The translations under genes were made by a program, and so were the position numbers. This document shows, piece by piece, positions 1-64,000 of a stretch of DNA of 64,000 bases. Position 1 is the stretch's first letter. Every line of letters begins with the position of its first letter. The stretch lies in the NCBI RefSeq assembly GCF_020520425.1, contig NC_079490.1, forward strand, positions 43,842,723 through 43,906,722, in the 5' to 3' direction. The notes under the pieces were generated by a model. The model made no database searches. It had not been told where the DNA came from and saw only the letters and a program-made list of their open reading frames with translations. This DNA comes from Spinacia oleracea. Its lineage: Eukaryota; Streptophyta; Magnoliopsida; Caryophyllales; Amaranthaceae.

Positions 1-952
1 TTAAAAAGGAACGTTTGTTGGAGTTTATGATAATTAGGGATCGTTAGGGAATTAATCACTATTCTAGGAAGTTAATTAATTAAGTTTCGATATTGGGGAA
101 TGTTCTAAATATGTTTAGGATGTGTTTAGAGTACGTTAGTGTTGCTGTAAATTATTAGGAATTGATTTGGGTACGTTTCTTGATTATTTTAGGCGGAGAA
201 TTCTTTGTGGGCGACTTTTGAATTCGTTAAAGTGGCCTATCCGTTTGTTTACACAAGGTACGTACATACCTGTGTGCTTGGATGTGTGTTGTATTGAGAA
301 TATGATGAATATATTTATGAACTTGTTTATGTTGGAGTTTCATGTTCAATGTCGTTGAATTAATGCGTTGAGCATAGAACTTTATTTATAAGAATTGAAT
401 CATGTTAGCATGGAATATTGATGCAAGCATGTTGGTTTTGGAGAACTTCATAGTATTTAATATTGGTTTAGATCTTTATTGATCGTTGTTCCTCTTTAGA
501 TTTTCACTACTTTATAAGGGCCGAGGACCTTGTTTGGTAGTTGAACCTTATACCTAATAAAGGTTTTTAAATATGGATAGAGGAAGGATTAAAATAGTTG
601 GAATTGGCTCTTGGTTGGACGTTGTGATCACTTATTTAATTCAAAGATAAAAGAAGTTGTGTTTACTTGTTGAATATAATATTTATGTTTGATGAGTCAT
701 AACCAAGTATTAAAAGTTAAGTCATTAAAAGTTAAGTCATGTAGTACTCAGCTTTGCTAATTACGTGCTTTGTTTGTGTGTGTTAATCATGGCTATGCCT
801 TATTGATCCTGTGATGACCCATTTTGGTGAGCAGTCTCTAAGGATCAATAAGCGTTGCCATCTACAGGTTTGAAGATGATGCATCATGGGGATCGAGATT
901 AGAGAGCTTGTATTTAGTTTCGTTTTGCTAAGTAACTTGGTTTGTTAATTTA
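1..952 (+). repeat. Truncated long LTR (Tekay/Del-like), 3' part
   Basis: This stretch aligns almost base for base with about 28.2-29.5 kb of the complete solo LTR at 27035-29743. Shared blocks include GGTACGTACATACCTGTGTG, the segment around 730-800 and the segment at 840-915. It is cut by the window edge on the left. On the right it stops at about 952, exactly where the 196-bp tandem array begins, so the last ~240 bp of the LTR are missing. It has no coding content. The Tekay/Del lineage is inferred from the ends of the complete copy. Confidence 0.75.
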
Positions 953-10900: not shown

Positions 10901-13900
10901 TAATCTGAGTTTCCAATTTTCACGTCGCAAAATTAGAAAAATAAGGAGTTGCCTGATAAATCCAGCTATTCATTTTGAGTTAAAACTATAGATCTTGAAT
11001 CTGCTATATTGAGCAGTATAACTTGAACTGCATTTTCTTATTTGAAAGTGAGAAAACTTTATGAGAAAAGGTCAGTTAATTTAAGATTAGTTCGCTTCCC
11101 CTAGTAAACAATCAAACGACCAACTTCGTAGCCTCATTATAGAAAAGTAAGGATATATAGATTATATTCAGCTCTCTTAATCTTGACAGTTTCCTTCTTC
11201 ATGATTCTGTACCCATATCTAAAGGAAATTTAGAGAAATAAAATCAGGAAAAGAATTCTTAAAAGAGGCAATCAGTAAAGGACTATTTACTTTTACCAGA
11301 ACGGCAAAAAATACAGGGAGAGAGAAGTGAAAAGGGACGGAAGACTACTTCCATCCTGTAGCACCATGATGTGTACACTAATGAGTCCATGATATACCAC
11401 AAGCCAAACTGTCTTGACTGCTTGTTTGGCGAAATTAGCTTTAAATTGAAACATCTAAGATTTTCTTATGTAAAATCCTACATCTGGAGATGGTGTGAAT
11501 AGAGGCATACAAAATGAGCAGCTATGGAAGGCTGTATCTCTACCGACATATATTCTGGGCTGTATGATTGTTTTTTGGGTCAAATTTAGTCGTCACGCAG
11601 GACAAGTATATGACCCTGTTAGATAAGTCTGATTAGGCAGAGCCTCAGTTGTCTGCACTCTATAATTACCTGAATGTGAAATAGTTATAAAATACAGAAT
11701 GCCGTTTCAGCAAGAATCACGAGAAAACCAGAATGAAGACAAATAAACTTCTGGTGTCACGCAGTCATTAAGCTCGATGTGAAGAGCAACGCTACACTTA
11801 TCTCTGGGATGTGTCAAATGAAACCCAATCAGATTATTTTATTCATCTCTGCTTGTTTCATAGATTGCTTGCCTTGAGATTGGACACTTCTAGCAAATCA
11901 TGAACAAATATTTCCTCCAAACTGAACATGCAGAACTTACTTGAATAGGTACTTTAAACATCTGACGTGGTATAAGCTCCTTCAACTTTTGAGTCAAGGC
12001 CCGCCCCACGCTGTACGCCTAATGAGAAATCAGAATACAGATCAGTGATATAAGTCAAAGAACATAAATCATTCATATATACCTTTCCTAGACATAGACA
12101 GGGAGAAACTAAAAATGGCGTGAACAAGAAGCTCTTTGGTTTGATCAATGGGCCCCACAATGACCTTACCAGCAGGCTAGCAAACACTAACTGAGGCCAA
12201 TTCATAAACATACGTAACTCTACATTAACTAGAACTAAATAAATTACTAATCCTCGTAAAGTGGGTTATAAATGAAATATTTGACTGACGAAAGGTTCTG
12301 GTACACATAGCAACAGCACAAAAGCATGGGTAATCCAACTATCTAGCAGAAGGTAATCAACTTATATAAACCTGATTACCTTATCTCTATGAACAATAGT
12401 AGCCAAAGGATCCACACGATCACCATTTATTTGAATATCAAGCTTAACCAAGTCGCTTTCCCGATACCTGGCAGTTCAAATGAACATAAAGCTTAAGCAA
12501 TCTCGTCTTTATTTAATTTCCGTCCCCCATTAGAAGACTAATCGTGGTGGGGTTTTGTTGATTAAAGGTGAATAAAGGTAGTGGACTGTGGATATAGTTT
12601 AATATTTTTCGGGGAGGTGAAATAGGTAGGGATCCAATGTGGGGAGGTAAAGGGATTGAAAGCAATATTTTATTATTGGACCCAACCCAAAATGAGAAAA
12701 GGGAAGTTTATTGGGGGACAAGTATTTTGTGACAAATGGGAAGTTTGATGGCGGAAGAGGGAGTACTTCGTATATATACTAATTCAAATCCAAATTCGTA
12801 AAAAGGGAACTGCGATGAGATCAGACAATCCATAGAGTGAACAGACAAACTAGAGATGTTACAGGTGTAGGGGAAAGAACCACTCGAAAGCATCAAAAAC
12901 TAATTAAAGAACCCGACTAAGTCGAAAAAATTTGAGTTTCATTAGAAACAATAGTCAGTACCCCATAAAGGTGTACTCCATGCTGGCATAACCTTTACTC
13001 CTGGACTTCAGCTGGTCAAAAAAGTCACCCACCATCTGTGGGAATGAAATTTTTAAAAAAGTTAATAATACCAGCAATAAGAAATGAAGAGCAAATAAAG
13101 CGACAAAACAAAATACAAATTGTTTAAGAAATTGACCAATAAAATTTGAGAAGGCTACCTCCGCCAATGGCATTGCATAGCTTAATGATGCTCTAATCTC
13201 AGTGATAAATTTCATTTCTTTAAACTCTGCCCTTCTTTCTTGAGCCAGCTCCATCAATGGACCAATATAGTCTTTCGGTGTAAGTATTTCAATCTGTATA
13301 AACCATATTACAACAGAACTTTGGTCATTACAAAAACAAAAATGTAGCTTCAATCTCATCTTAACCAACAGATTGTTCAAGGCACGTAAAAGAACCTTAA
13401 CATATGGCTCGTCGATTGATTTACGTTTGCCAGGTTCTGGAAGTGCAGCAGGATTAGAGCATTCAACCTGAATAGACCATTACAAAATGTTTTAAGTAGA
13501 AAAATATATTTTCAAATTAGGGTGACGTTAACAAATAAAAAATTACTCGATTTAACAATTCATCAACACTAACAAAAACAACCCTACACCAAGACAGAAT
13601 TCTTCAGCCCAACCCTTGGCCTCTGAAGGAAATAATTGCAAAAGAAAAGATAAATATCCAGTGTTGGCAGAATTGCACATGATCCTAAAACAATAGAAGA
13701 CTACGGTATTTAATGAAAATAACGCAACACAGCAAGTGAAAACAACAAAGTTACCAACAAATCCTACTGAGGCTCAAAGTGTAGTTACCAATTCACCATC
13801 TGAGCAATTCACTCGATATACAACGCTTGGGGCAGTAGTTATTAGGGACAAATTATACTCTCGTTCCAGTCTTTCCTGCATGATGGATACAAATCATTCT

Positions 13901-40260: not shown

Positions 40261-40702
40261 ATCTAAATGAGCTTTATAACACGACTCCAAAAAGCGTCCA
40301 CACTTGTTTGTATAACCTTTTTTTTAACCACATATTCGTGTATCGCATACATGTTCTTTTTATTCCACGTACCTATTCCTGTATCGCATGTATATAATAT
40401 ATATATACATAATAAAACATTATTCATCACTATTATAAATTTAAAAATTAATAACTGCAACACAAGATCAATGAAACCTGATCGAATTGTGAATAATTGG
40501 TCTTCAATTAACAATAAAATTAACTTACAAAAACTTAAGTAGTTAAATTTCATAGTGCGTACACGTATGTTACTAACCAGAATCCAAACATACACACATC
40601 TATATCACTAACCGAAATCCTAACCAAACAGTCCAAAACAACATCATAAATCAAACCCAAGAAATTAAAACTAAAACTTAAAAAAACTAACTAGCTAGGA
40701 TG
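40261..40702. other. AT-rich spacer, nothing recognised
   Basis: No terminal repeats or coding frame were found. Short open runs exist on both strands, as expected by chance. Confidence 0.4.
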
Positions 40703-40941
40703 CACTAGTAGATTAATGATAAATTGCCGCACCTGATTTGCCGCATTATTTCACCTTTGCTGCAAATTACAATGTATTTGCCTCATTTAAGTTTAAAAAT
40801 GCGAGCGATTTCCTTCAATATTGCATAAAGATCCAACAATTCCCTAAATACGTTACTTTTTAAGTTATTTCCCACCATACCGTCCACGTAAGCAAGGGAG
40901 AAAGAGAAGTAATTTTTTTTTTTTTTTTCCGGTTCAGCATT

Positions 40942-41072
40942 GAACCGCTATATGAGATAGCGGTTTCGTTTTAAAGCAAACCGCCATCTGAGATGGCGGT
41001 TCAATGTTATAAACCGCTATCTCAGATAGCGGTTTGTATTAAAACAAAACCGCTATCTCAGATGGCGGTTTA
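40942..41072. repeat. Four tandem 23-26 bp palindromes
   Basis: Palindromes at about 40942-40967, 40978-41002, 41011-41035 and 41047-41072 share arms AACCGCTATCT/AGATAGCGGTT or the variant AACCGCCATCT/AGATGGCGGTT. The third has perfect 11-bp arms around one base. Spacing is about 33-36 bp. Confidence 0.92.
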
Positions 41073-41152
41073 CTTAATTGTAAATTATTTTTAACATGAA
41101 TTACAGTTTAAATAGAAATATAATTTAGAAGTAACCTCTTGTGACATCAATT

Positions 41153-41187
41153 GTGTCTGTAGCTCAGTGGATAGAGTGTTTGTTTCT
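41153..41187 (+). pseudogene. 5' half of a tRNA-Arg-like sequence
   Basis: It is identical to the first ~35 nt of the tRNA-like sequence at 41246 (GTGTCTGTAGCTCAGTGG...GTTTGTTTC), then breaks off within the anticodon loop into TTTTTAACC. It lies 93 bp upstream of the complete copy. Confidence 0.85.
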
Positions 41188-41245
41188 TTTTAACCATTTA
41201 TTAATATTAATTATAAACATTTCCAAATTTAACTTATCAACATTA

Positions 41246-41318
41246 GTGTCTGTAGCTCAGTGGATAGAGTGTTTGTTTCCTAAGCAGAAGGTTGTGGGTT
41301 CGATCCCTAGCTGATGTA
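41246..41318 (+). tRNA. tRNA-Arg(CCU)-like gene or pseudogene
   Basis: This is 73 nt with the layout of a tRNA: acceptor GTGTCTG, D arm GCTCAGTGGATAGAGT, anticodon loop TTCCTAA (anticodon CCU) and T arm with GGTTCGATCC. The internal promoter boxes are intact (A box TAGCTCAGTGG, B box GGTTCGATCC), and a T7 run (41319-41325) follows as a Pol III terminator. Compared with the canonical plant tRNA-Arg(CCU) as I recall it, most changes are C to T or G to A. They turn G-C pairs into G-U pairs and leave mismatches in the acceptor and T stems. It is probably a decaying, transposon-carried copy. Confidence 0.6.
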
Positions 41319-41424
41319 TTTTTTTAAAAAATCGATTTGAGTGGACGGTATGGTGGGAATTAAGTTAAAAAGTGGCGCATTTTGGGAATTTGACGTTCTT
41401 TAAACAATATTGAAGGAAATCGCT

Positions 41425-44187
41425 ATTATTTTTTAAAAAATCATTAATTAATTACCCCTCCCGGCCTCCCCTGTCACTTTTTGTTCCCAACCCTCCCAGG
41501 CCATTCAGCGCTAAATCACGAAACCCTATCTTTCTCTCCCAAACTATCCATATGTCGCCTCCGAAGAAGACAGCCGGCGAGGATCCGATGTTGCTGCACC
41601 TATGAGTCACGTACCGTTGCCTTATTATTCTCTTTGATTGTGGTTGCTTCTCCTCCTTTCTATTGTTTTGATATGAAAAGGTAACAGTCTCCCTCTCAAC
41701 TCTCAAGGTTAGGTTTTTGTATGAATTACGTTTAAGATAAAAAAATACATCTTAATTTTGGAAACAACCCAATGAATTATTGTTTTCCCTTCAAATGCAG
41801 TTGTTTTTTCGGATAAATTGGTTAGATTTCGTTTAATTTTCGTCCATTTTACACCATTTTTTCTATAGACAATTTGGGATTTGGGTTCTCTTATTTTTTA
41901 ATCGAAAGAGGGAAGAACTACTAATCCAGGGTTTCGTTTTTTCTTTTTCGTTCAGAATTAGGATTTGAGGATGCTTAATTATCAGGATGTCATCGGCAAA
42001 CTCTACAATTAGATTTTGGGATGCATCGAGTTTGATTCTATTTTGCTGATGCTACTTTTCTTGAGGGAAATTCTATTGTTGTTCCTCTGCTAGGAGTGTT
42101 GGCATCGGTAGGCTTCTCTTTTTTCTTCTTTAAGATTTACATAATTTTTAGTGTTAATTATATTTGCTGACTGTCTGAGGTATTTATTAATCTGTGATTA
42201 GTGAAAAGTAGTATGTGGAGGACTGTGGCTAGTTTTATTCATTGAATAACATGTAAAAGTTTTATTTGAGTTGTTGTAGATGATACAAGTTGGTGTGAAT
42301 TGGTTTAGATCAACAACATTTTCTTGGTCTGTGTAGAAGCTTGGGATTTGGCTCTTGTTTCAGGGTTGGTTGTGCTTGCTATGGTCAGGTTCTGGCTGGG
42401 ATGATTTGTAGATGGAATAGGCAGATTCTAGTGAGTTATTGTCCTGGATAAAGCTAACTCGATCTGCTGCTGGTTTTAGATGATGGCAGGGGGGTGGATT
42501 TTATAGGCTAGTTGTTTATTGGTATGCTTGCTATAATGCTACCTCAACTCAGTCATTAGTTATTCTTTCTTGTTTTTGTAGTTGGGGTTTGTAATCTGGT
42601 TCTAGGGTGGTCAACCCATATGGGTGGGTTGCCGGTTCAGGTGTATTTTGGTGATGAATTGATTTGATTACTCACGAGTAGAAAAACCATGAAATACATC
42701 GGCAACTTTTTATCAGCTCATTTGATTTTCTTACAACTAAATGGGGAGTAGTTTCTAATTTATTTACTAATTTGTTGACAACAAATGTTTCTGAAAGGTT
42801 TCTCTAGAGACCTCGAAGCTGCTCATGCAAAGGCCAGTTGGAAGGAGAGGCGGTGTCAATTACTCTAACAAAAGAGGGAAAACTACTTGCAAATGCATAC
42901 CATGTATGGAATTGGTAAGAACTAAGAACTCTTTAATTGTTTTATATCTAGTTTTAATTTCGAATTCCTTTTCTTCCGAGTCAAGTTTAGTCATAGTAAT
43001 CTTTATGAATCTATATTTTCAAAGTTGTGATGTTGTTTAGATTCAGTCACAAAGTTTAAAGGCAGGATTAACTAATAAACTGCATTTTTTGAGTTTTGGT
43101 ATGTAGTTCCTCTAGGAACGTTGAGGATAATAGAGGAAGAGGATTTTTTTTGTAAAGATCAAAGCTTCTCTGCAAAATTATGAGTATTTAGATATAGGCT
43201 AATCATAAGTTTTAAGTGTTTGTCTCTAACAAATGGTAAGAACTTTGTGTACGTGCACCATTCTTCATGAGAAATATCGTAGTCGTAGTTCACAAGTGCG
43301 CGTCTGAATGACATTCTACGAGTCTGCATCCTGTTTATCTGATTGTTCATACAAGTATTTGATTAGTGGTATTCTGTTTATATTCATTTTTGAGTTCTCT
43401 GATGTGTAATCCAATTTGGAACATTAATAATCTCATCATTTAACCTCAAAAAAAAAAAAATTAAACTAACACATGGTAAATATAAACAAAAAGCCACTAC
43501 TATCATTCTGATCACAATACAATATAATGTCTCATAGTTCTTAAGAAAAAAGGCTAAAGTTGGAAGACTTAAGATGCGTTGGTAATCCCGTGTAAAATCC
43601 TAATAGAAGTACAAAGATGAGAGGAGGAGAATTATAGAAGGCAAGAAAAATGAATTATAAGTAGACGGGTAGAAAAGGGGGATAGGTTTTAATGGGGAAA
43701 TGGATGAAAAGAGAATCAAGGGTCACATAGGATGAACATCATTTGTGAAGTTTTTTTTTTATAGGAACATCATTTGTGAAGTTACGCACATTGGCTTCTT
43801 TTTTTTTTAAAGTAAATTTAGGCATGTAATTCGGTAGATTTGGTATATAAAACGCTTAGGAATCCTCCTAGTATTCCATAGCTTTTCTAAAATATAATTT
43901 TTAGAATAAATTTAGGAGTAAGAATATAAAGCTGTGGGCTATCATAACCAGTTATCTCCTTTTTTATTAATATGGGTATTATATGACGTTGTTCTAAGAT
44001 AAGTGTTTCATATCCCTCAATAAAACAGTTAACACACCCCACCGTTCTATATTTAATGTTATGTATTCCCATATTTGTAGTAGTGACCATTACTTTCATC
44101 TTTCTTCATATCTTTTCTCCTTTGACACTGTCATTATAGGGTATCCAACTGTCCATCCTACTCCCGAGTGTAAAATTACTCTTGGAA
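41425..44187. other. CACTA interior, possible captured gene pieces
   Basis: Positions 41450-41720 look like the 5' end of a host gene: C/T-rich leader, then ATGTCGCCTCCGAAGAAG at 41552, a short frame with an early TGA. T-rich intron-like sequence follows to 42800. A short gene-like stretch at 42810-42910 (LEAAHAKASWKER) lacks context. I do not recognise the source. The remainder is AT-rich. Confidence 0.35.
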
Positions 44188-44438
44188 TTGTGGTGGCATT
44201 TTGAGTTTCTCATCTTTCAACTTTTTCATTGGGTAATATAGGGGTTGTGGGTTCTGTGCGTTATGTATCTGTATCATCTCATTCTTTTACTGATGTATAG
44301 GCTATAAGTACTTGTGGTGGCATTTTGAGTTTCTCATCTTAAGACTTTTTCATTGGGTAATATAGGGGTTGTGGGTTCTGTGCGTTATGTATCTGTATCA
44401 TCTCATTCTTTTACTGATGTATAGGCTATAAGTACTTG
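44188..44438. repeat. 124-bp tandem duplication, two copies
   Basis: Copies start TTGTGGTGGCATTTTGAG at 44188 and 44312. They differ only in a short patch (CATCTTTCAAC versus CATCTTAAGAC). Confidence 0.92.
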
Positions 44439-45103
44439 TGTAGGCTTTAGAGGAAGTTAAATATACATCTTATAACTCGTTCTGCATCTTATTCCTTGTC
44501 TCCAGGATATGTTCAGAAGATATCGGCTATAAAGGGTCTTAAAACAAGATGCAACCTGTGATGAAACACATTTAAGTCCTCATGCTACTCATTTTAATAG
44601 GATTATCCAGTTGTGTACTCTTCAATAGTAAGAGGATATTTTGTTGTCATTCTTGTTAATTATTCATTGGTAGCAAACAGATTGTAAATGGGCATTTTCA
44701 GCTAATTTAACCCCAAGGAGTTGGAATGTATTATAGTTTTAGGCTACAATATTAATGTGTGGCTGCTGTAAATTTTTTTTAAAAAGAATTCACAACATTT
44801 ACCGCGTTTTATTTACCGAAATGCAGCAATTGATATTTACATTTGCCCCATTTTTTTTGAAAAAAATGCTGCAGATGACTTTTTTTGCTGCACTTTTTTT
44901 GCGCGGCAAATGATATTCACATTTGCAGCCCCCAATGTTGCCGCACCACGAATAACGCTGCAAATGAGGCTTTTTTATGCGCGGCAAATCCCCTTTATTC
45001 TAATAGTGATGTACTATATATACTAAATATATATAGATGATCGATGGTAGTAGCTCATATGAAGCTCAACTGTCTTGGCCTTCATGCTGCTTTTGCACCT
45101 TAT

Positions 45104-46477
45104 TGAAGGAAATAATGCCCTTGGTCCAAGTATGCATTTAATGATAAGTCTAATAAATGTGGTTCATTATTAATTATACAAGTTAATAATTCAGTGAGAT
45201 CAAGTGAACTGAATGCCTAGCTAGAGGCCGTTTCAGTTCAAATTAATCCACAACTTACTCTTGACTGAACCCGTAGGGTCACACAAATAGTACGTAAACG
45301 GATCAAGTATTTAATAGCATTACATACTCTATCTAATCAATATTCGGAATCGACGGATCTTGGTTTCAGTGGGAGCTGAGATCGTCAAAGGCAAGTAAAT
45401 GAATACTCCGGAAACGATGATATTGCCGGCAACGGAAATATGGATCGTATCGGAAATATAAATATTATCCAAGTCGTAGATGTTGCCGGAAACGGAAACA
45501 TGGTACGTATCGGAAAATATTATCGGAAATGGAAATATTGCCGGAATCGGAAATATTGCCGGAAACGGAAATATTGACAGAATCGGAAATATTATCAGAA
45601 TCGGAAAATATTAAATATTTTTTCGAGACGGAAATTAATTCCGGAATCGGAAATCTTAAATATTGTTCGTATCGGAAATGAATTCCGGAATTGGGAAATT
45701 AATCGGAAGCGCGTCGTACGAATTAGCATCGGACGAGCTTGCTAGACGAAGGCCCAACACGAAGGCAGGCCCGCGTCCAGCAAGGCAATCGCGCGCCACA
45801 ACACGCCCAGCCCAAGGCTGCCCCAGGCCCACCACAAGGCAGGCCCAGCGCGCGCTAAAGGGGGCAGGCAGCTTGTGGGCTTCGTGGCCGAATGGCTGCG
45901 TCGCTCGGGCTTCGCGCGCGCGCATGGCGCCCCTCGTGGGCTGCTGTGCGTGCGTGTGTGTTTGTGTTCACATACGAAACCTAAAGCGTATATGATTCGT
46001 TTAATGATTAAATTTCCTAATCCTAAAAAGATAAATTATTTAAATAAGAGTTCTGCTAGGATTCTAATTTAATTAATTCGTATCCTAGTAGGATTGGATT
46101 GCTTATTCCATGGCCTCTAAATATGAGATCAAGGCTCATAATTTATAACGAGTTTGAAGTATTCAAAGGTAAGAATTTGAGCAAAAATTCAGTCATACAC
46201 CTTGCCCATAATAGCCGAATATTTTAGTACCTTAAGGGCGATTCTAGTTGGTCAATCTTAAGGCGGATCCGAACGTGCTGTGGACTTTCTACGGAGGGAT
46301 GACACTTGTAGTCCTAAAGACTTGTTCTTGTTCGGTTCGGGCGCAACAAATGAGGGCACGCTACAAAGAGTATGCATCCTAATTATGCTAATTGTTATGT
46401 GGCAATTAATTTGGAATCCTGGCGTTTATGGTTTTTCCGCATGATTTATATTCGTTTATATGTATCATAACCTAACA
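45104..46477 (+). repeat. 5' LTR of the + strand copia element
   Basis: It starts TGAAGGAAATAATGCCC and ends CATAACCTAACA, and is 1374 bp long. It contains the CGGAAATATTG-type repeat cluster (45415-45690), a GC-rich stretch (45715-45960) and a TATA region near 46114 that reads CTCTAAATATG, with the TATA core mutated relative to the 3' LTR. Confidence 0.9.
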
Positions 46478-54640: not shown

Positions 54641-56780
54641 AAGATTTAAGCAAGCAATTGGGAATTGGAAATGTATGTTAGTGAAGCTAATAAGTATTTT
54701 AGTTTCATAAAATATACATGATTCTTATAGATATATAAGAAGTTTAGTGGGAGTACAAAAAAAACTTAATTGGTCCTATGTGTATCACACACATATCTCT
54801 CTATTGTGAAATGACATTCAAATGCTAATGACTTAGATTTGAAATTATTCATCAATGATGGACCATGGCGAAACTTAGTACATACTGGGTATTAAGATCT
54901 ATTTACAAAGATCTTATAATATTGTTTTGGATTAAGTAATGGCATTTACTAAATCAAACACGAAAGACTCCATTGGAGACATTCGACTCATATGAATAAA
55001 TCTAAGTAATGAATGTTTGAACTATGTATAAGCATTTACTAAGTTAAACATCAAAGAGCCTAAATGAGATTCTTAACCTATATTATATGTCAAAGAATTT
55101 AGCTGGATTTAGTATCTACTGAAACTAGATGAGCTAAAGTTACATGAATAGAATTCAATTGAGAATTATTCTACAAAAGAATTTATCATGTATGATATAA
55201 TATGAGGATCGCCAAAAACGTATTGTATGACTTTAGGCATGACGAACATATACCAATCTCTATTGATCTAAGTGAAGATCAACTAGATTGAGATCAAGAA
55301 AAACTTATGGTACTTGAAAAGGTACATAGGAATAGTTCTTGACTCAAGGAAATAAAGATATGCTAAATATTGATGCTACACGCATAAACACTGGCAAAGG
55401 ATCAAGCAAGTTTCCTTTGGAGTTAACCATTGACAAGGAAGAGCTAAAGAGCATCGTGTTTAAAAATGGCAACATGGATTGGAGACCATGAGTTGGTACG
55501 TGGGAAATTAAATATTAATTTCTATGTTCTAAGATACAGCTGGAAAGTCTTCCACATATCTGTGAACTGCTTGGATAAGTAAATCCAACCAAAGCATCAC
55601 TAGCAACCTATACAGTTGAAGTAAAAGTACTTATTGCCTAAGAAGCAATAAAACAGGGTTGTTTATGTTAAAGAGTTCTTCACTGAACTTGGGTAGATCA
55701 CATGTCTGCTGACTTGATGGTTCTTCATTGCAAAATGCGTAGAACCACTCTTGTAGCTAGAAAGAATAGATCGCAAAATAAACATACTCAAAAGATCTTA
55801 TCATCATATCTCGAAGAACATTCGATGAAAAGGATATTAAGATTGGATTGGCAAAGCGTGATAACTAAACCTAAGCAACAAGTGAGAAGCAACACTCACA
55901 TTGTAGCACTGGAAATCAAGCATAGCTTTGAATTCCATAAACTGTTTTAAAGATGGGTTCGAGGCCCATGGTTGTAAAACATTGGGGTTGAACATTTATC
56001 ATATATGAAATGTATTTTCATATTCCATTTAATCTTGGTTTAGTATTAAATGATGAGTCCCTTCAATTTGACGATATATTCAAGATAGATTGTCAAGACC
56101 AGTCCTGTGACTAAGAAATGTCTATCAAGTGAACTTGAATGTCAAAAGTTGAAAATGGTCCCTAGTCGGAGTTTTCTATAAAGATGGACGCCTAGAAAAC
56201 GTTAGACGACTAGAATGCAAGATGACTAGTAGTTCTGTTTCTTGAATTATGTGGACATGGAAATGTCGTAATCATTTGCATAGATACTTACTTTGGGGAG
56301 ACTAGTATCGGACAGACCTATGAAACTTTACTGTAAGAGATGAAAATCTGTCATAAGTAAATTTCATTAAAATTATTAAACACTAATCCTCAATACCTGA
56401 GTGATTTGAGATTAATTGTTTGAGAACTGCTTACTTTGACGTTGTCAACCGTCGCACCGTAAAAGGAGGCTATAAAGGCAACGCTCAGGTAATCACCTAT
56501 CAAACGAAGTCTAATCTCAAGATCGCAAGATTGGGATTGTCCTCCCATAAATCGGGATGAGATGCTGAAAGTTGTACAAGGCCACTCGGAGAGCTAGAAA
56601 CTGTAAAATGCATGGCCGTGCTCAGATGAATCATAGGCTATGATTATCTGTTTATTTGATCAATTGAACTCTGAAACCGAGAAACACCTCTGGACATAAT
56701 AAGGATGACAACTCTTACCTTATGTTCAAGGGCAAGCATCGAGCGACAAAGGAATTAGGAAATGCACACTTGTCCCTAAG
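54641..56780 (+). other. Decayed copia RT/RNase H and 3' non-coding region
   Basis: No intact frame was found. From about 56030 to 56794 the sequence is the inverted counterpart of 59721-60530, the 3' non-coding part of the minus-strand element. Confidence 0.6.
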
Positions 56781-56794
56781 GACAAGTGGGAGAC

Positions 56795-57931
56795 TGAAGG
56801 AAATAATGCCCTTGGTCCAAGTATGCATTTAATGATAAGTCTAATAAATGCGGTTCAGTATTAATTATACAAGTTAATAATTTAGTGAGATCAAGTGAAC
56901 TGAATGCCTAGCTAGAGGCCGCTTCAGTTCAAGTGGATTAATGATATTAATCCACAGCTTACTCTTGACTGAACCCGTAGGGTCACACAAATAGTACGTA
57001 AACGGATCACGTATTTAATGGCATTAAATACTCTATCTAATCAATATTCAGAATCGACGGATCTTGGTTTCAGTGGGAGCTGAGATCGTCAAAGGCAAGT
57101 AATGAATACTCCGGAAACGATGATATTGCCGGAAACGGAAATATGGATCGTATCGGAAATATAAATATTATCCAAGTCGTAGATGTTGCCGGAAACGGAA
57201 ACATGGTACGTATCGGAAAATATTATCGGAAATGGAAACATTGCCGGAATCGGAAATATTACCGGAAACGGAAATATTGTCAGAATCGGAAATATTATCG
57301 GAATCGGAAAATAATTTCGGAAACGGGAATATTAAATATTTGTTCGAGACGGAAATTAATTCCGGAATCGGAAATGTTAAATATTGTTCGTATCGGAAAT
57401 GAATTTCGGAATCGGGAAATTAATCGGAAGCGCGTCGTACGAATTAGCATCAGACGAGCTTGCTAGACGAAGGCCCAACACGAAGCCAGTCCCGCGTCCA
57501 GCAAGGCAATCGTGCGCTACAACACGCCCAGCCCAAGGCTGCGCCAGGCCCACCGCAAGGCAGGCCCAGCGCGCGCCAAAGGGGGCATGCAACTTGTGGG
57601 CTTCGTGGCCGAATGGCTGCGTCGCTCGGGCTTTGCGCGCGCGCGCATGGCTCCCCGTGTGGGCTGCTGTGCGTGTGTGTGTGTTTGTGTTCACATACGA
57701 AACCTAAAGCGTATAGGATTCGTTTAATGATTAAATTTCCTAATCCTAAAAAGATAAATTAATTAAATAAGAGTTCTGCTAGGATTCTAATTTAATTAAT
57801 TCGTATCCTAGTAGGATTGGATTGCTTATTCCATGGCCTATAAATATGAGATCAAGGCTCATAATTTATAACGAGTTTGAAGTATTCAAAGGTAAGAATT
57901 TGAGCAAAAATTCAGTCATACACCTTGCCCA
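56795..57931 (+). repeat. 3' LTR of the + strand copia element, truncated
   Basis: It matches the 5' LTR from TGAAGGAAATAATGCCC to CACCTTGCCCAT, then stops. About 240 bp of the LTR end is missing. The TATA box CTATAAATATG (57839-57846) is intact here. Confidence 0.9.
57839..57846 (+). promoter_or_regulatory. TATA box of the truncated copia LTR
   Basis: TATAAATA after CCATGGCC. The minus-strand copy has the equivalent site (inverse of ATATTTATAG near 58646). Confidence 0.65.
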
Positions 57932-58287
57932 TTGTGAGGGGGTCGAAAAAGCGCGAGGCTAATGCGTGACCTCGTCCCTCGTGGGTGTGACGATTCTTTT
58001 TATTCAATCAAGTGTAATTGGATTTCCTGTGAGTTTACACCCAATTGACTAGTAATATAGGAGTCGCCATTCAGTTTTTAACGACAATGAGAAAAACTGA
58101 CAAAACCCGGTTATCGTGACATAAAGGGAGTGCAATTATGTTTGACCACGACGGCCGTAGGTTCCCTTGTGATCCCTGGTGGTGGGGATCGCTCAACGTA
58201 CACCCGCAGGGTAGAGATTGAGGGTTCGGGGGACTGTAACTACCGAGAGGAGTACTCGCTCTTCGATAACTCCAGAGGCAGGATATC
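57932..58287. other. Fragment of another LTR retroelement between the two copia LTRs
   Basis: It begins TGTGAGGGGGTCGAAAAAGCG and includes GGAGTCGCCATTCAGTTTTT and GAAAAACTGACAAAACCCGG, a layout I associate with Gypsy-type leader/LTR sequence. It has no long ORF. It interrupts the + copia LTR on its left and abuts the - copia LTR on its right. Confidence 0.5.
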
Positions 58288-59720
58288 TGTTAGGTTATGA
58301 TACATATGATATTACATAAATCATGCGGAAACAACCATTAACCCAGGAATACATATTATTTACACATAATCATATAGCATAATTTAGATGCATACTCTTT
58401 GTTGCGTGCCCTCCCTAGCTGCGCCCGAACCGAACAAGAACAAGTCTTTAGGACTCCAAGTGTCGTCCCTCCGTAGATAGTCCACAGCACGTCCGGATCC
58501 GCCTTAAGATTGACCAACTAGAATCGCCCTTAAGGTACTAGAATTTTCGGCACTTTTGAGCAAGATGTGTGATTGAATTTTTCTCTCAAAAACTCACTTT
58601 GAATACTTTGAAACTCGTTATAAATTGTGAACCCAGGCCACATATTTATAGGGGTATGGAAAGGGAATTGGAATCCTATTCAGATACAAATTAATTAAAC
58701 CTAGAATCCTACAAGAACTCTAATTAATTAATTTATCTAATAGAATTAGAAATTTAATCATTAACCGAACTCTGCATGTTTTAGGAATCGTGCATGAACA
58801 CAAACACTCACGCACACACACACGGCAGCCACGATGGGCCGCCCATGCGCGTGCGTGCGAGCAGCAGCCCACGCAGCGAGGCCTACGCGAGCTACAAGCC
58901 CACGTAGCTCCTGCGCGCGCTGCGCGCGCTGTGCGCGCTGTCTCGGCCAGCTGGGCCTGGCCTTGCGCTGGGCCTGGCGTGGCCTTGGCTGTTCGTGTGG
59001 CGCGCTTGGCTTGCTGGGCGATGGCCTGGCTTCGTGCTGGGCCCTCGTCCGGCAGGCCTCGTCCGATGCTTATTCGTACGATACGCTTCCGATTAAATTT
59101 CCGATTCCGGAATTCATTTCCGATACGAACAATATTTAATATTTCCGATTCCGGAATTAATTTCCGTTTCGAACAAATATTTAATATTTCCGTTTCCGGA
59201 ATTATTTTCCGATTCCGATAATATTTCCGATTCTGACAATATTTCCGTTTCCGGCAATATTTCCGATTCTGGCAATATTTCCATTTCCGATAATATTTTC
59301 CGATACGTACCATGTTTCCGTTTCGGCCAACATCTACGACTTGGATAATATTTATATTTCCGATACGATCCATATTTCCGTTTCCGGTAATATCATCATT
59401 TCCGGAGTATTCATTTCTTGCCTGTGACGATCTCAGCTCCTACTGAAACCAAGATCCGTCGATTCCGAATATTCATAGATGGAGTATTTAATGCCATTAA
59501 ATACTTGATCCGTTTACGTACTATTTGTGTGACCCTACGGGTTCAGTCAAGAGTAAGCCGCGGATTAATATCATTAATTCCACTTGAACTGAAGCGGCCT
59601 CTAGCTAGGCATTCAGCTCACTTGATCTCACTGAATTATTAACTTGTTAATTAATACTGAACCGCATTTATTAGACTTATCATAGAATGCATACTTGGAC
59701 CAAGGGCATTATTTCCTTCA
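58288..59720 (-). repeat. 3' LTR of the - strand copia element
   Basis: It is 1433 bp. On the minus strand it starts TGAAGGAAATAATGCCC (59720) and ends CATAACCTAACA (58288). It carries the same CGGAAATATT repeat cluster (59080-59400), a GC-rich stretch (58800-59060) and a TATA box. Confidence 0.93.
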
Positions 59721-60584
59721 GTCTCCCACTTGTCCTTAGGGACAAGTGTGCATTTCCTAATTCCTTTGTCGCTCGATGCTTGCTCTTGAACATAAGGTAA
59801 GAGTTGTCATCCTTATTATGTCCAGAGGTGTTCCTCGGTTTCAGAGTTCAACTGATCAAATAAGCAGATAATCATAGCCCATGATTCATCCGAGCACGGC
59901 CATGCATTTCACAGTTTCTAGCTCTCCGAGTGGCCTTGTACAACTTTTAAGCATCTCATCCCGATTTATGGGAGGACAATCCCAATCTTGCGATCTTGAG
60001 ATTAGACTTCGTTTGATAGGTGATTACCTGAGCGTTGCCTTTATAGCCTCCTTTTACGGTGCGACGGTTGGTCAACGTCAAAGCAACCAGTTCTCAAACA
60101 AGTAATCTCAAATCACTCAGGTATTGAGGATTTAGTGTCTAATAATTTAATGAAATTTACTTATGACAGATTTTCATCTCTTACAGTAAAGTTTCATAGG
60201 TCTTGTCCGATACTAGTCTTCCCAAAGTAAGTATCTATGCAAATGATTATGACATTGCCATGTCCACATAGTTCAAGAAACAGAACTACTAGTCATCTTG
60301 CATTCTAATCGTCTAACGTTTTCTATGCGTCCAATTTTATAGAAAACTCCGATTAGGGACCATTTTCAACCTTTGACATTCAAGTTCACTTGATAGACAT
60401 TTCTTAGTCACAGGACTGGTCCTGACAGTCTATCTTGAATATATCGTCAAATTGAAGGGACTCATCATTTAATAAACCACAAATTAAATGGAAAAATGAA
60501 TTCTTTTCATTTATTGTGAATGATTAACCAATAATGTTTTACAAAGATTTAAACCCTAAAACTTTAAAACATTAAACAGAGACA
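59721..60584 (-). other. Copia 3' non-coding region
   Basis: It lies between the pol stop and the LTR, with no frame. It is conserved in sequence with 56030-56794 of the + strand copy, which suggests a shared cis-acting or structural role, or simply common descent. Confidence 0.7.
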
Positions 60585-63500
60585 TCAAAGCCATTCTCCA
60601 ATATGCCTGATTCCCATAGCTGCAGTGTGCGAGTTGTGCTTCGCTTGCGGCAGAGGTTTAGTTAATGGATCTGATATGTTGTCATCAGTTCCAATCTTGC
60701 TTATCTCGACTTCTTTTCTTTCAACGAACTCTCGTAGAAGGTGAAATCTACGAAGTACATGCTTGACTCTCTGGTGGTGTCTAGGCTCTTTTGCCTGTGC
60801 AATAGCTCCGTTATTGTCACAATACAGGGCTATTGGTCCTTTAATGGAGGGGACTAAACCAAGTTCACCTATGAACTTCCTTAGCCATATAGCTTCCTCT
60901 GCTGCTTCATGTGCAGCAATGTACTCCGCTTCAGTTGTAGAATCCGCAATGGTGCTTTGCTTAGCACTTTTCCAGCTTACTGCTCCTCCGTTGAGGCAGA
61001 AGACAAACCCAGACTGTGATCTGAAATCATCTTTGTCGGTTTGGAAACTTGCGTCCGTATAGCCTTTAACAATTAATTCATCATCTCCACCATAGACCAG
61101 GAAGTCATCTTTGTGCCTTTTTAGGTACTTCAGAATGTTCTTGGCAGCAGTCCAATGCGCCTCTCCTGGGTCTGACTGGTATCTGCTCGTAGCACTGAGT
61201 GCGTACGCAACATCCGGGCGTGTACATATCATAGCATACATTATTGAACCAATCAATGATGCATATGGAATCCCATTCATTCGTCTACGCTCATCAAGTG
61301 TTTTTGGGCACTGAGTCTTGCTTAGAGTCATTCCATGAGACATGGGTAGGTAGCCTCGCTTGGAGTCCGCCATCTTGAACCTATCAAGCACCTTATTGAT
61401 ATAAGTGCTTTGACTAAGTCCAATCATCCTTTTAGACCTATCTCTGTAAATCTTGATGCCCAATATGTACTGTGCTTCTCCTAGATCCTTCATCGAAAAA
61501 CATTTCCCAAGCCAAATCTTGACGGAGTTCAACATAGGAATTTCATTTCCGATAAGTAATATGTCGTCGACATATAATACTAGGAAAGCAATTTTGCTCC
61601 CACTGACCTTCTTGTATACACAAGATTCGTCTGCGTTCTTGATGAAACCAAAGTCACTGACTGCTTCATCAAAACGTATATTCCAGCTCCTGGATGCCTG
61701 CTTCAATCCGTAGATTGACTTCTTTAGCTTGCATACCTTTTTAGCATTCTTTGGATCCTCAAAACCTTCAGGCTGTGTCATAAACACAGTTTCTGTTAAA
61801 ACGCCGTTTAAGAAAGCAGTTTTGACATCCTTCTGCCATATTTCGTAATCGTAATATGCAGCGATTGCTAACATTATCCGAATAGACTTTAGCATTGCAA
61901 CTGGTGAAAAGGTTTCATCGTAATCCACACCGTGGACTTGCCTGTAACCTTTTGCAACCAATCTAGCTTTGAATACTTCAAGTTTCCCATCCTTGTCCTT
62001 TTTCAGTTTGAAAACCCATTTGCTTCCAATGGCTTGGTAGCCATCTGGCAAATCGACCAAATCCCATACTTGGTTTTCAGACATGGAGTCTAATTCAGAT
62101 TGCATGGCTTCTTGCCATTGCTTGGAGCTAGGGCTCGTCATAGCTTGTTTGTAAGTCGCAGGTTCATCACTTTCAAGTAATAGAACGTCATAGCTCTCGT
62201 TCGTCAAAATACCTAAGTACCTTTCCGGTTGAGATCTATATCTTTGCGATCTACGCGGGGTAACATTTCTAGATTGACCATGATTCTCACCAGATTCTTC
62301 TAAAGATCTCTGAGTTTCATCCTGAATGTCATCTTGAGCATTCTCTAGAGTTTGTTGTTCGACTCGAATTTCTTCGAGGTCTACTTTTCTCCCACTTGTC
62401 ATTTTGGAAATGTGATCCTTCTCCAAAAAGACACCATCTCGAGCAACAAACACCTTGTTCTCAGATGTATTGTAGAAGTAATACCCCTTTGTTTCCTTTG
62501 GATAGCCCACAAGGATACATTTGTCAGATTTTGGATGAAGTTTGTCTGAAATTAATCGTTTGACGTATACTTCACATCCCTAAATCTTAAGAAAAGACAC
62601 ATTTGGAGGCTTTCCAAACCATAATTCGTATGAAGTCTTTTCGACAGCTTTAGACGGAGCTCTATTTATAGTGAGTGCAGCTGTATTTAGTGCATGTCCC
62701 CAAAATTCTAATGGAAGTTCGGCCTGACCCATCATTGACCTGACCATGTCTAGCAAGGTTCTGTTCCTCCGTTCCGACACACCGTTCCAGTGGTGTTCCA
62801 GGAGGAGTCAACTCTGATAGAATTCCACATTCTTTCAGATGGTCATCAAATTCATAGCTCAGATATTCACCGCCTCTATCAGACCGCAGTGCCTTAATCT
62901 TCTTGCCTAATTGATTCTCTACTTCACTCTGAAATTCCTTGAATTTGTCAAAGGATTCAGACTTATGCTTCAATAGGTAGACATAACCATACCTGCTGAA
63001 GTCATCAGTGAAAGTGATAAAGTAGCTGAAACCACCTCTAGCATTTGTACTCATTGGTCCACATACATCTGTATGGATTAAACCTAATAGTTCATTTGCT
63101 CTTTCTCCAACTTTAGAGAAAGGTTTCTTTGTCATTTTGCCAAGTAAACATGATTCGCATTTACCATAATCCTCTAAGTCAAATGGTTCTAGAATTCCTT
63201 CCTTTTGAAGTCTTTCTAAGCGTTTCAAGTTTATATGGCCTAATCGACAATGCCACAGATAGGTGAGATCTGAATCATTCTTTTTGGCCTTTTTGGTATT
63301 TATGTTATATACTTGTTTGTCGTGATCTAATAAATAAAGTCCATTGACTAATCTAGCAGATCCATAAAATATCTCTTTAAAATAAAACGAACAACTATTG
63401 TCTTTTATTAAAAAGGAAAATCCCTTAGCATCTAAGCAAGAAACTGAAATGATGTTTTTAGTAAGACTTGGAACATGGAAGCATTCTTCTAGTTCCAAAA

Positions 63501-64000
63501 CTAGCCCGGAGGGCAACGACAAATAGTAAGTTCCTACAGCTAATGCAGCAATCCGCGCTCCATTTCCCACTCGTAGGTCGACTTCACCCTTGCTTAACTT
63601 TCTACTTCTTCTTAGTCCCTGTGGATTGGAACATAAGTGTGAGCCACAACCTGTATCTAATACCTAAGAAGTTGAATTAGCAAGTATACAGTCTATAACG
63701 AAAATACCTGAAGATGGAACGACTGTTCCGTTCTTCTGATCTTCCTTTAGCTTTGGACATTCTCTTTTGTAATGGCCTATTCCATCACAATAAAGACAGC
63801 TTGATGTGGACTTGTCCTGCTTTGATTTAGCATTGCCCTTGGACTTTCCACCTTTCTTGAATGGTCTCTTTCTAGCCTTGAGTAAATCTTTGGCTTCACA
63901 GTCCAGTATTATTTCAGCCTTTCTGACAAGGTGAACAAATTCTGCAACTGTTTCTTCTCTTGGTTCACTTAGGTATAGTTGCTTGAAGCGACCAAACCCA
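60585..64000 (-). pseudogene. Copia gag-pol polyprotein, partial, three breaks
   Basis: From the window edge down, the visible protein starts with a Gag C-terminal part and a zinc knuckle CLYCDGIGHYKREC (CX2CX4HX4C). The protease motif VLDTGCGSH follows. Integrase comes next: HCRLGH...CESC zinc site, HTDVCGP and SDRGGEY acidic residues, then SERRNRTLLDMVRSM. Reverse transcriptase follows, from FKARLVAKGYRQVHGVDYDE to the catalytic YVDDILLIG. RNase H is last (TEAEYIAAHEAAEEA, YCDNNGAIA), ending at the TGA at 60585-60587. The breaks are a TAG just before VLDTG (about 63663), a frameshift in integrase near 62787 (apparent 2-bp loss) and a TAG at 62580-62582. Both TAGs sit where relatives have Trp. 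It is not functional as it stands. Confidence 0.93.

Follow-up and report, generated by a model that had tools for sequence, protein, structure and literature searches.

A candidate non-autonomous MULE family carrying tRNA-Arg-derived sequence in spinach, and a deleted copy of it nested in a CACTA element

At the left end of a CACTA element in Spinacia oleracea (contig NC_079490.1), the original prediction placed an inverted-repeat unit, at 40804..41424 of the 64,000 nucleotides analyzed here as a whole (the window), that encloses four palindromes and a tRNA-Arg sequence. Such a combination raises the question of whether the unit belongs to the CACTA element, is an element driven by its tRNA, or is a TIR transposon that captured a tRNA gene. 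With a probability of about 0.9, the unit is one internally deleted member of a non-autonomous MULE family that took up and multiplied a tRNA-Arg gene, this copy having inserted into the CACTA element.

The repeat unit and its CACTA host

The unit is real, and the arms, palindromes, and tRNA could all be recovered, although the element proper spans 40803-41424. Inverted arms are present, but in place of the 83 bp first given they form an alignment of 96 nt at 82% identity (40792-40887 / 41341-41436), with a score of 124, whereas the best of 300 dinucleotide shuffles reached 42; 17 of the 96 positions differ, and difference-free runs of 20 and 19 lie at both ends of the element's arm. Four near-identical palindromes of the form AACCGCYATCTSAGATRGCGGTT occur at the positions given in Table 1, where none were expected (100 shuffles), three of them departing from the search pattern by 1 or 2 mismatches. 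The sequence thought to be a complete tRNA-Arg(CCU) is called tRNA-Arg(CCT) by ARAGORN and receives 41.9 bits from Rfam, and an A box, a B box, and a T run of the Pol III terminator type are all found with it, as claimed, the two boxes being assigned by their usual consensus. A truncated tRNA 5' half likewise exists upstream as a copy identical at 34 of 34 nt (41153-41186), but only 26 nt of it align to the first tRNA unit (tRNA1) of the family described below, the last 8 aligning to the tRNA1 trailer, TTTRTTTC; conversion from the second unit (tRNA2) would be an alternative to 26 nt of tRNA1 plus trailer.

Table 1. Coordinates of the nested copy, its host element, and the family consensus (window positions unless the consensus is named)
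Feature	Position	Strand	Basis or remark
Host CACTA element, 4306 bp; TIRs CACTAGTAGATTA / CACTATTAGAATA	40703..45008		ATG duplications 40700-40702 and 45009-45011
CACTA left subterminal repeats, TTGCCGCA / TTGCTGCA type	40724..40790	+	sequence
CACTA right subterminal repeats, type as at left end	44804..44990		sequence
Nested deletion copy of the ~790-bp candidate MULE family, terminal C lost	40803..41424	+	family alignment; empty sites in L079-L081
Left TIR outer arm, 85 bp, starts GAGCGATTTCCTTCAATATTG	40803..40887	+	arm alignment, family comparison, genome TIR pattern
Right TIR outer arm	41341..41424	-	arm alignment, family comparison
Palindrome 1, AACCGCTATATGAGATAGCGGTT	40943..40965		pattern search
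Palindrome 2	40979..41001		pattern search
Palindrome 3	41012..41034		pattern search
Palindrome 4	41048..41070		pattern search
tRNA unit 1, 5' 26 nt; remainder (~47 bp by family comparison) absent	41153..41178	+	family alignment
tRNA unit 2, tRNA-Arg(CCT)-derived	41246..41318	+	ARAGORN, Rfam, host-gene comparison
Presumed A box, TAGCTCAGTGG	41253..41263	+	sequence
Presumed B box, GGTTCGATCCC	41297..41307	+	sequence
T run, Pol III terminator type	41319..41325	+	sequence
Junction of internal deletion; two right palindromes removed	41326..41340		family alignment
Probable right-border deletion scar: terminal C, right target duplication, ~9 bp of CACTA gone	41424..41425		empty-site comparison
Consensus (790 bp, of 38): outer arms	1-85 and 706-790		
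Consensus: palindromes, left four	135, 171, 204, 240		
Consensus: palindromes, right two	604, 637		
Consensus: tRNA1	345-417		tandem with tRNA2
Consensus: tRNA2	485-557		tandem with tRNA1

The location at the left end of a CACTA element was confirmed; the right end of that element lies at 45008, and ATG flanks both sides. The host shows the marks of its class, namely a TIR pair (2 mismatches in 13), a 3-bp duplication, and subterminal repeats, of the TTGCCGC type, common to both ends. No transposase was found between 40703 and 45008, where the longest stop-to-stop ORF is 99 aa and two of the three ORFs of at least 80 aa gave no Pfam match. The element also includes a 124-bp tandem duplication, 97-98% identical, at 44188-44435. 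Elsewhere in the window are a Copia-type pol region on the minus strand (60588-63663; RVT_2, rve, and GAG-pre-integrase) with related repeats at 45104-46209, 55862-57932, and 58287-60664; a tandem array of six copies of a 196-bp unit, or alternatively three of 394 bp (954-2136); and a minus-strand ORF with an elongation factor G C-terminal domain (12958-13479).

Relatives of the CACTA element were sought in the genome with a query that joined its first 100 bp at the left to 20 bp of flanking sequence, which gave 14 places, all 14 candidates being scored. The 13 matches outside the window start at 40703 in five cases, at 40702 in one, and at 40692 in seven, and the five that start at 40703 stop at 40799-40802, directly before the insert. 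The seven that begin 11 bp outside the element (for example, C6:81726489) have 81-82% identity. All three relatives inspected (L079, L080, and L081) have an uninterrupted site, reading AAAAATGC-AGCAAATCTA-TTATT where the window reads AAAAATGC, the element, and ATTATT, and the MULE copy therefore entered the CACTA element later and is not a part of it. No target duplication of the window copy's own is present at the aligned borders. Judging from the empty sites, its absence would result from the loss of some 19 bp at the right border, a small deletion flanked by CT on either side that probably took the terminal C and the right duplication; low-complexity matches to TTTAAAAA were set aside as candidates for this duplication.

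A dispersed family with 9-bp target duplications

The window's own genome (894 Mb) was queried with the 621 bp, and the best 40 of 695 candidates were scored. This yielded 39 other loci, in 38 of which both ends fell within the retrieved stretch; in the remaining one (L017), which contains an insertion, the other end is 2.9 kb away. The unit is thus not single-copy, and its arms, palindromes, and tRNA occur together in 38 other copies, a set selected by similarity to the window copy. Alignment of these copies revealed constant edges and target duplications: 31 of 38 are 780-796 bp long, 36 start with GAGCGATTTCC, 34 end with GGAAATCGCTC, and 9-bp flanking repeats agree exactly in 33 and at 8 or more of 9 positions in 34 (L027 having 8/9), with no duplication at the trimmed borders of the remaining four (L011, L013, L031, and L048). 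CACTA ends or cargo gave no BLAST match (E 1e-3) in any of the 39 retrieved loci. The window copy is 97.2% identical to the family consensus and lacks about 47 bp of tRNA1 as well as everything between the tRNA2 terminator and the right arm, including both right palindromes.

The two ends of the element can be aligned for about 195 bp, and two palindromes then fall at corresponding positions, so that the palindromes form part of an inner TIR, of which the left end carries a second pair. Across the genome, the outer TIR end pattern has 888 matches (441 + 447) at up to 2 mismatches (reversed control, 0), and the palindrome has 1952 at the same tolerance (control, 0). Six palindrome clusters on C1 were retrieved, picked from eight without an adjoining listed exact TIR, and each of the six has one or more TIRs when 2 mismatches are allowed. 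At C1:38384537-38384782 and C1:38395688-38395933, 11.15 kb apart, are two palindrome pairs that agree in their matched letters and in orientation, perhaps through local duplication. A palindrome match in a goat-colon bacterial contig (L001; 55% GC, directly after an ORF, and with no other match to the window) was read as a chance bacterial terminator, pattern scans of IMG/VR gave 0 matches, and the best 20 of 363 papers retrieved with the palindrome string were unrelated by title.

Plant MULEs are characterized by target duplications of 9-11 bp and long TIRs (PMC3310237), and the family has both, with 9-bp duplications and, against a usual TIR length of about 100 bp or more, an 85-bp outer arm within ends that align to about 195 bp. 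From these duplications and TIRs the family is, judged by sequence, a non-autonomous MULE, and since it carries host sequence it is Pack-MULE-like, its internal sequence being traceable to a host gene through identity to tRNA-Arg(CCT). The same TIRs and 9-bp duplications rule out a SINE. SINEs are retroposed, lack TIRs, and have duplications of variable length and a 3' tail.

Searches for an autonomous partner covered loci with the MULE domain PF10551, of which the best 150 of 1960 candidates were scored, all 150 above the cut-off; none of the five loci retrieved had the family TIR (GAGCGATTTCCKTYAATATTG). ORFs tested in the long TIR pairs L064, L067/L068, and L082 had no Pfam match. Among the matches listed for C1 are four exact TIR pairs separated by more than 1 kb (2.9, 3.4, 16, and 32 kb), and on comparison by eye none of the 150 PF10551 places listed falls between their ends. 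Three further places (L084-L086; C1:3303278, 16801585, and 65551542) combine the TIR variant GAGCGATTTCCGTYAATATTG with palindromes, with no partner end in the retrieved stretch. This variant may mark longer or autonomous elements.

Origin and condition of the tRNA cargo

Among the matches listed, which covered C1 and part of C2, there were 19 exact TIR pairs less than 1 kb apart, and 18 were examined. The tRNA sequence was present in 12 and absent in 6. Four tRNA-less members (L050, L051, L053, and L054) have a different middle between arms that keep 88-99% of the consensus, and L063 looks to have become tRNA-less through a recent deletion. In L061, family TIRs and an exact 9-bp duplication surround an unrelated middle that replaces the tRNAs, and the family may therefore have taken up cargo repeatedly. 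L059 and L060 contain one tRNA each and L055 two. Members with one tRNA or none make the tRNA look like captured cargo, and of the two origins initially proposed, capture of a tRNA gene by a TIR transposon is supported by these members together with the co-occurrence of parts in 38 copies. A tRNA-driven non-autonomous element, the other proposal, is disfavored: a MULE accounts for the TIRs and the 9-bp duplications, and all six tRNA-less members inspected have duplications (9/9 in four, 8/9 in two). The simplest order would run from tRNA-less members through a single tRNA to a tandem pair and its amplification; it was drawn up without a rooted tree, and for some members loss is possible.

The host tRNA-Arg(CCT) gene is found at four exact places in the genome and is matched at 58 of 73 positions by consensus tRNA1, at 60 of 73 by consensus tRNA2, and at 61 of 73 by tRNA2 of the window copy, 10 of whose 12 differences are C>T or G>A. 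The flanks of the four host genes match the element only slightly past the tRNA, and no donor of the pair was found among them. ARAGORN, run on the 38 copies, the window copy, and the consensus, called tRNA-Arg(cct) 19 times, tRNA-Asn(gtt) 21 times, and other tRNAs 4 times; in copies with printed coordinates the Asn call sits at tRNA1, the anticodon of which is doubtful, and the Arg origin of tRNA1 is accepted because of its 58/73 identity to the host gene. The element's tRNA 5' pattern has 211 matches in the genome (106 + 105; up to 2 mismatches; control, 0), which may include other tRNA sequences. Scored with a loose consensus, 94 tRNA-like units include 92 with an A box and 77 with a B box; the two boxes occur together in 75, of which 73 also have a T run no more than 30 nt away; L064 and L068 contributed zero units to this count although tRNA sequence was seen in both.

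Substitution outside CpG sites, relative to the consensus of the 38 copies, amounts to 1.6% in tRNA1, 3.7% in tRNA2, 0.8% in the palindromes, 0.3 and 1.2% in the arms, and 0.9-2.9% in the spacers. tRNA2 is the most variable part, and two spacers vary more than tRNA1; by these rates the tRNAs are not conserved beyond the spacers, and the conservation of the body under selection that would mark a functional tRNA gene is not seen. CpG loss in the same 38 copies is concentrated in the tRNAs, at 29 of 375 cells, compared with 12 of 2070 in the rest of the element (3/976 in the palindromes, 8/644 in the arms, and 1/450 in the spacers, the last made up of 0/114, 1/74, and 0/262). The tRNA value was 44/450 before 2 of 12 sites were dropped at which the consensus differs from the host gene and the direction of change is unsure; the cells are not independent, shared changes being counted repeatedly, and the signal comes from few sites (10 in two tRNAs). 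Ten elements chosen by their exact ends gave 7/95 in the tRNAs (14/114 uncorrected) versus 3/520 elsewhere. On a tree built without the tRNA columns, Fitch steps for tRNA2 were also raised at A/T sites (0.70 versus 0.02-0.19). Low CpG loss in the palindromes (3/976, with the Fitch steps and the 10-element sample) had been taken to mean that they are specially kept, a conclusion withdrawn because the spacers are as low (1/450) and the tRNAs are the outliers. That CpG loss is confined to the tRNA units is a small puzzle, since the spacers of the same elements do not show it and simple neglect does not explain it; candidate causes are transcription, methylation directed at the units, and sequence conversion, whether from one unit to the other or from host tRNAs.

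Alternative readings and place among known elements

The palindromes invite two other interpretations. Some CACTA elements, Tgmt* among them, have subterminal repeats that are palindromic (PMC2613891), and the palindromes here could be imagined as such repeats of the enclosing element, but they are present in copies without any CACTA element and absent from the CACTA right end, and L079-L081 lack the entire insert. On the CACTA-free copies and the empty sites this interpretation is rejected, its chance of being correct being negligible. The palindromes could instead act as RNA, a long near-perfect hairpin giving rise to miRNA- or siRNA-like small RNAs. All four do fold as one long hairpin, with fold z-scores of -18 over 40938-41077 and -22 over the element in full, and Rfam reports sub-threshold matches to MIR1319 and MIR7526 at 40953-41060, but any inverted repeat folds in this way and the matches are under half of the gathering score, so that a role as RNA is unlikely. 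A precursor of either named family is rejected, at 54.5 of 116.6 bits for MIR1319 and 49.9 of 110 bits for MIR7526. Among the 10 papers listed for miR1319, none showed that name. These two families may themselves resemble transposon palindrome arrays.

As for the tRNA sequence, the ARAGORN cloverleaf, the A and B boxes, the T run, and CAA at -8, the last two a context described for plant tRNA genes (PMC11700998), would suit a working tRNA-Arg(CCT) gene at 41246-41318. This is very improbable, given 12 changes from the host gene, 41.9 bits versus 67.1, acceptor and anticodon stems that together contain five G-U pairs and one T-T, a position inside a nested transposon, and four exact genes elsewhere in the host. 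A different proposal makes the units functional parts of the transposon, with Pol III or TFIIIC occupancy keeping the element open, forming a silencing boundary, or yielding transcripts or fragments that the element uses. The 73 of 94 units with both boxes and a T run, the tRNA in 12 of 18 short TIR pairs, and the 211 pattern matches argue for it, as does CpG loss raised in the tRNA units only, for which continued transcription or methylation aimed at the units could be responsible. Against it, the tRNA bodies are no better conserved than the spacers, tRNA-less members moved as well, Rfam scores are 29-42 bits versus 67 for the host gene, and boxes are expected to persist for a while after capture in the absence of selection; we regard it as quite unlikely. 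Little probability also attaches to the bolder idea that a cut-and-paste DNA transposon made tRNA genes mobile while they stayed Pol III-competent, such that TFIIIC or Pol III occupancy or transcription, of which CpG loss would be the trace, keeps copies accessible to transposase and resistant to silencing.

The favored reading remains that of a MULE family with captured cargo. The family would have taken up a tRNA-Arg gene that now exists as a tandem pair in an amplified subfamily, and a MULE transposase acting in trans on the TIRs of about 195 bp would produce the 9-bp duplications, which are observed, the enzyme being postulated. From their position, the palindromes of the inner TIRs may be binding sites for transposase or for a host factor. 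Most likely the tRNA units travel as passengers, their Pol III boxes mostly kept and their bodies not conserved. The window copy would have inserted into the CACTA element and then undergone deletions internally and at its right border.

The family shares long TIRs, 9-bp duplications, many copies, and captured host sequence between its ends with plant non-autonomous MULEs and Pack-MULEs (PMC3310237 and PMC8903248), but its cargo is a tandem tRNA pair rather than a protein-gene fragment, and its inner TIRs bear palindrome arrays. Palindromes clustered near the ends, in unequal numbers at left and right, also occur in the soybean CACTA elements Tgmt* and Tgm1 (PMC2613891), whereas the 790-bp family belongs to a different superfamily, with no CACTA ends and a 9-bp rather than a 3-bp duplication. 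Pack-CACTA and Chenopodium Jozin elements likewise hold host DNA between TIRs (PMC8978399), and the host element in the window is also a CACTA; the tRNA cargo, however, is in the nested MULE and not in the CACTA. Drosophila FB4 and Ssk-FB4 are of the non-autonomous MULE type, with long TIRs and host sequence (PMC8277862), but there the cargo is a protein gene and the TIRs are about 700 bp. The main text of a gene-capture review (PMC13317346), of a Pack-TYPE paper (PMC8903248), and of PMC3310237, PMC8277862, and PMC8978399 has 0 occurrences of the word tRNA, and a spinach transposable element survey (PMC6337768), which records 167 MULE-MuDR and 445 MITE elements, names no such family in the part of its text covered. 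Judged by title or the start of the abstract, no paper found describes a DNA transposon or MULE with tRNA cargo. tRNA-derived SINEs resemble the family in that they too are repeated elements with A and B boxes of the tRNA type. They differ in that the family has TIRs and 9-bp duplications, full-length tandem tRNAs in its interior, and some members without any tRNA.

The insertion into the CACTA element, with empty sites in its relatives, is a clean example of how composite features arise. The family provides a route by which a plant genome may acquire tRNA-Arg-like sequences, about a hundred or more of them, through DNA transposition and not through retroposition, and such tRNA-carrying transposition matters for how tRNA genes are counted and how tRNA fragments are mapped.
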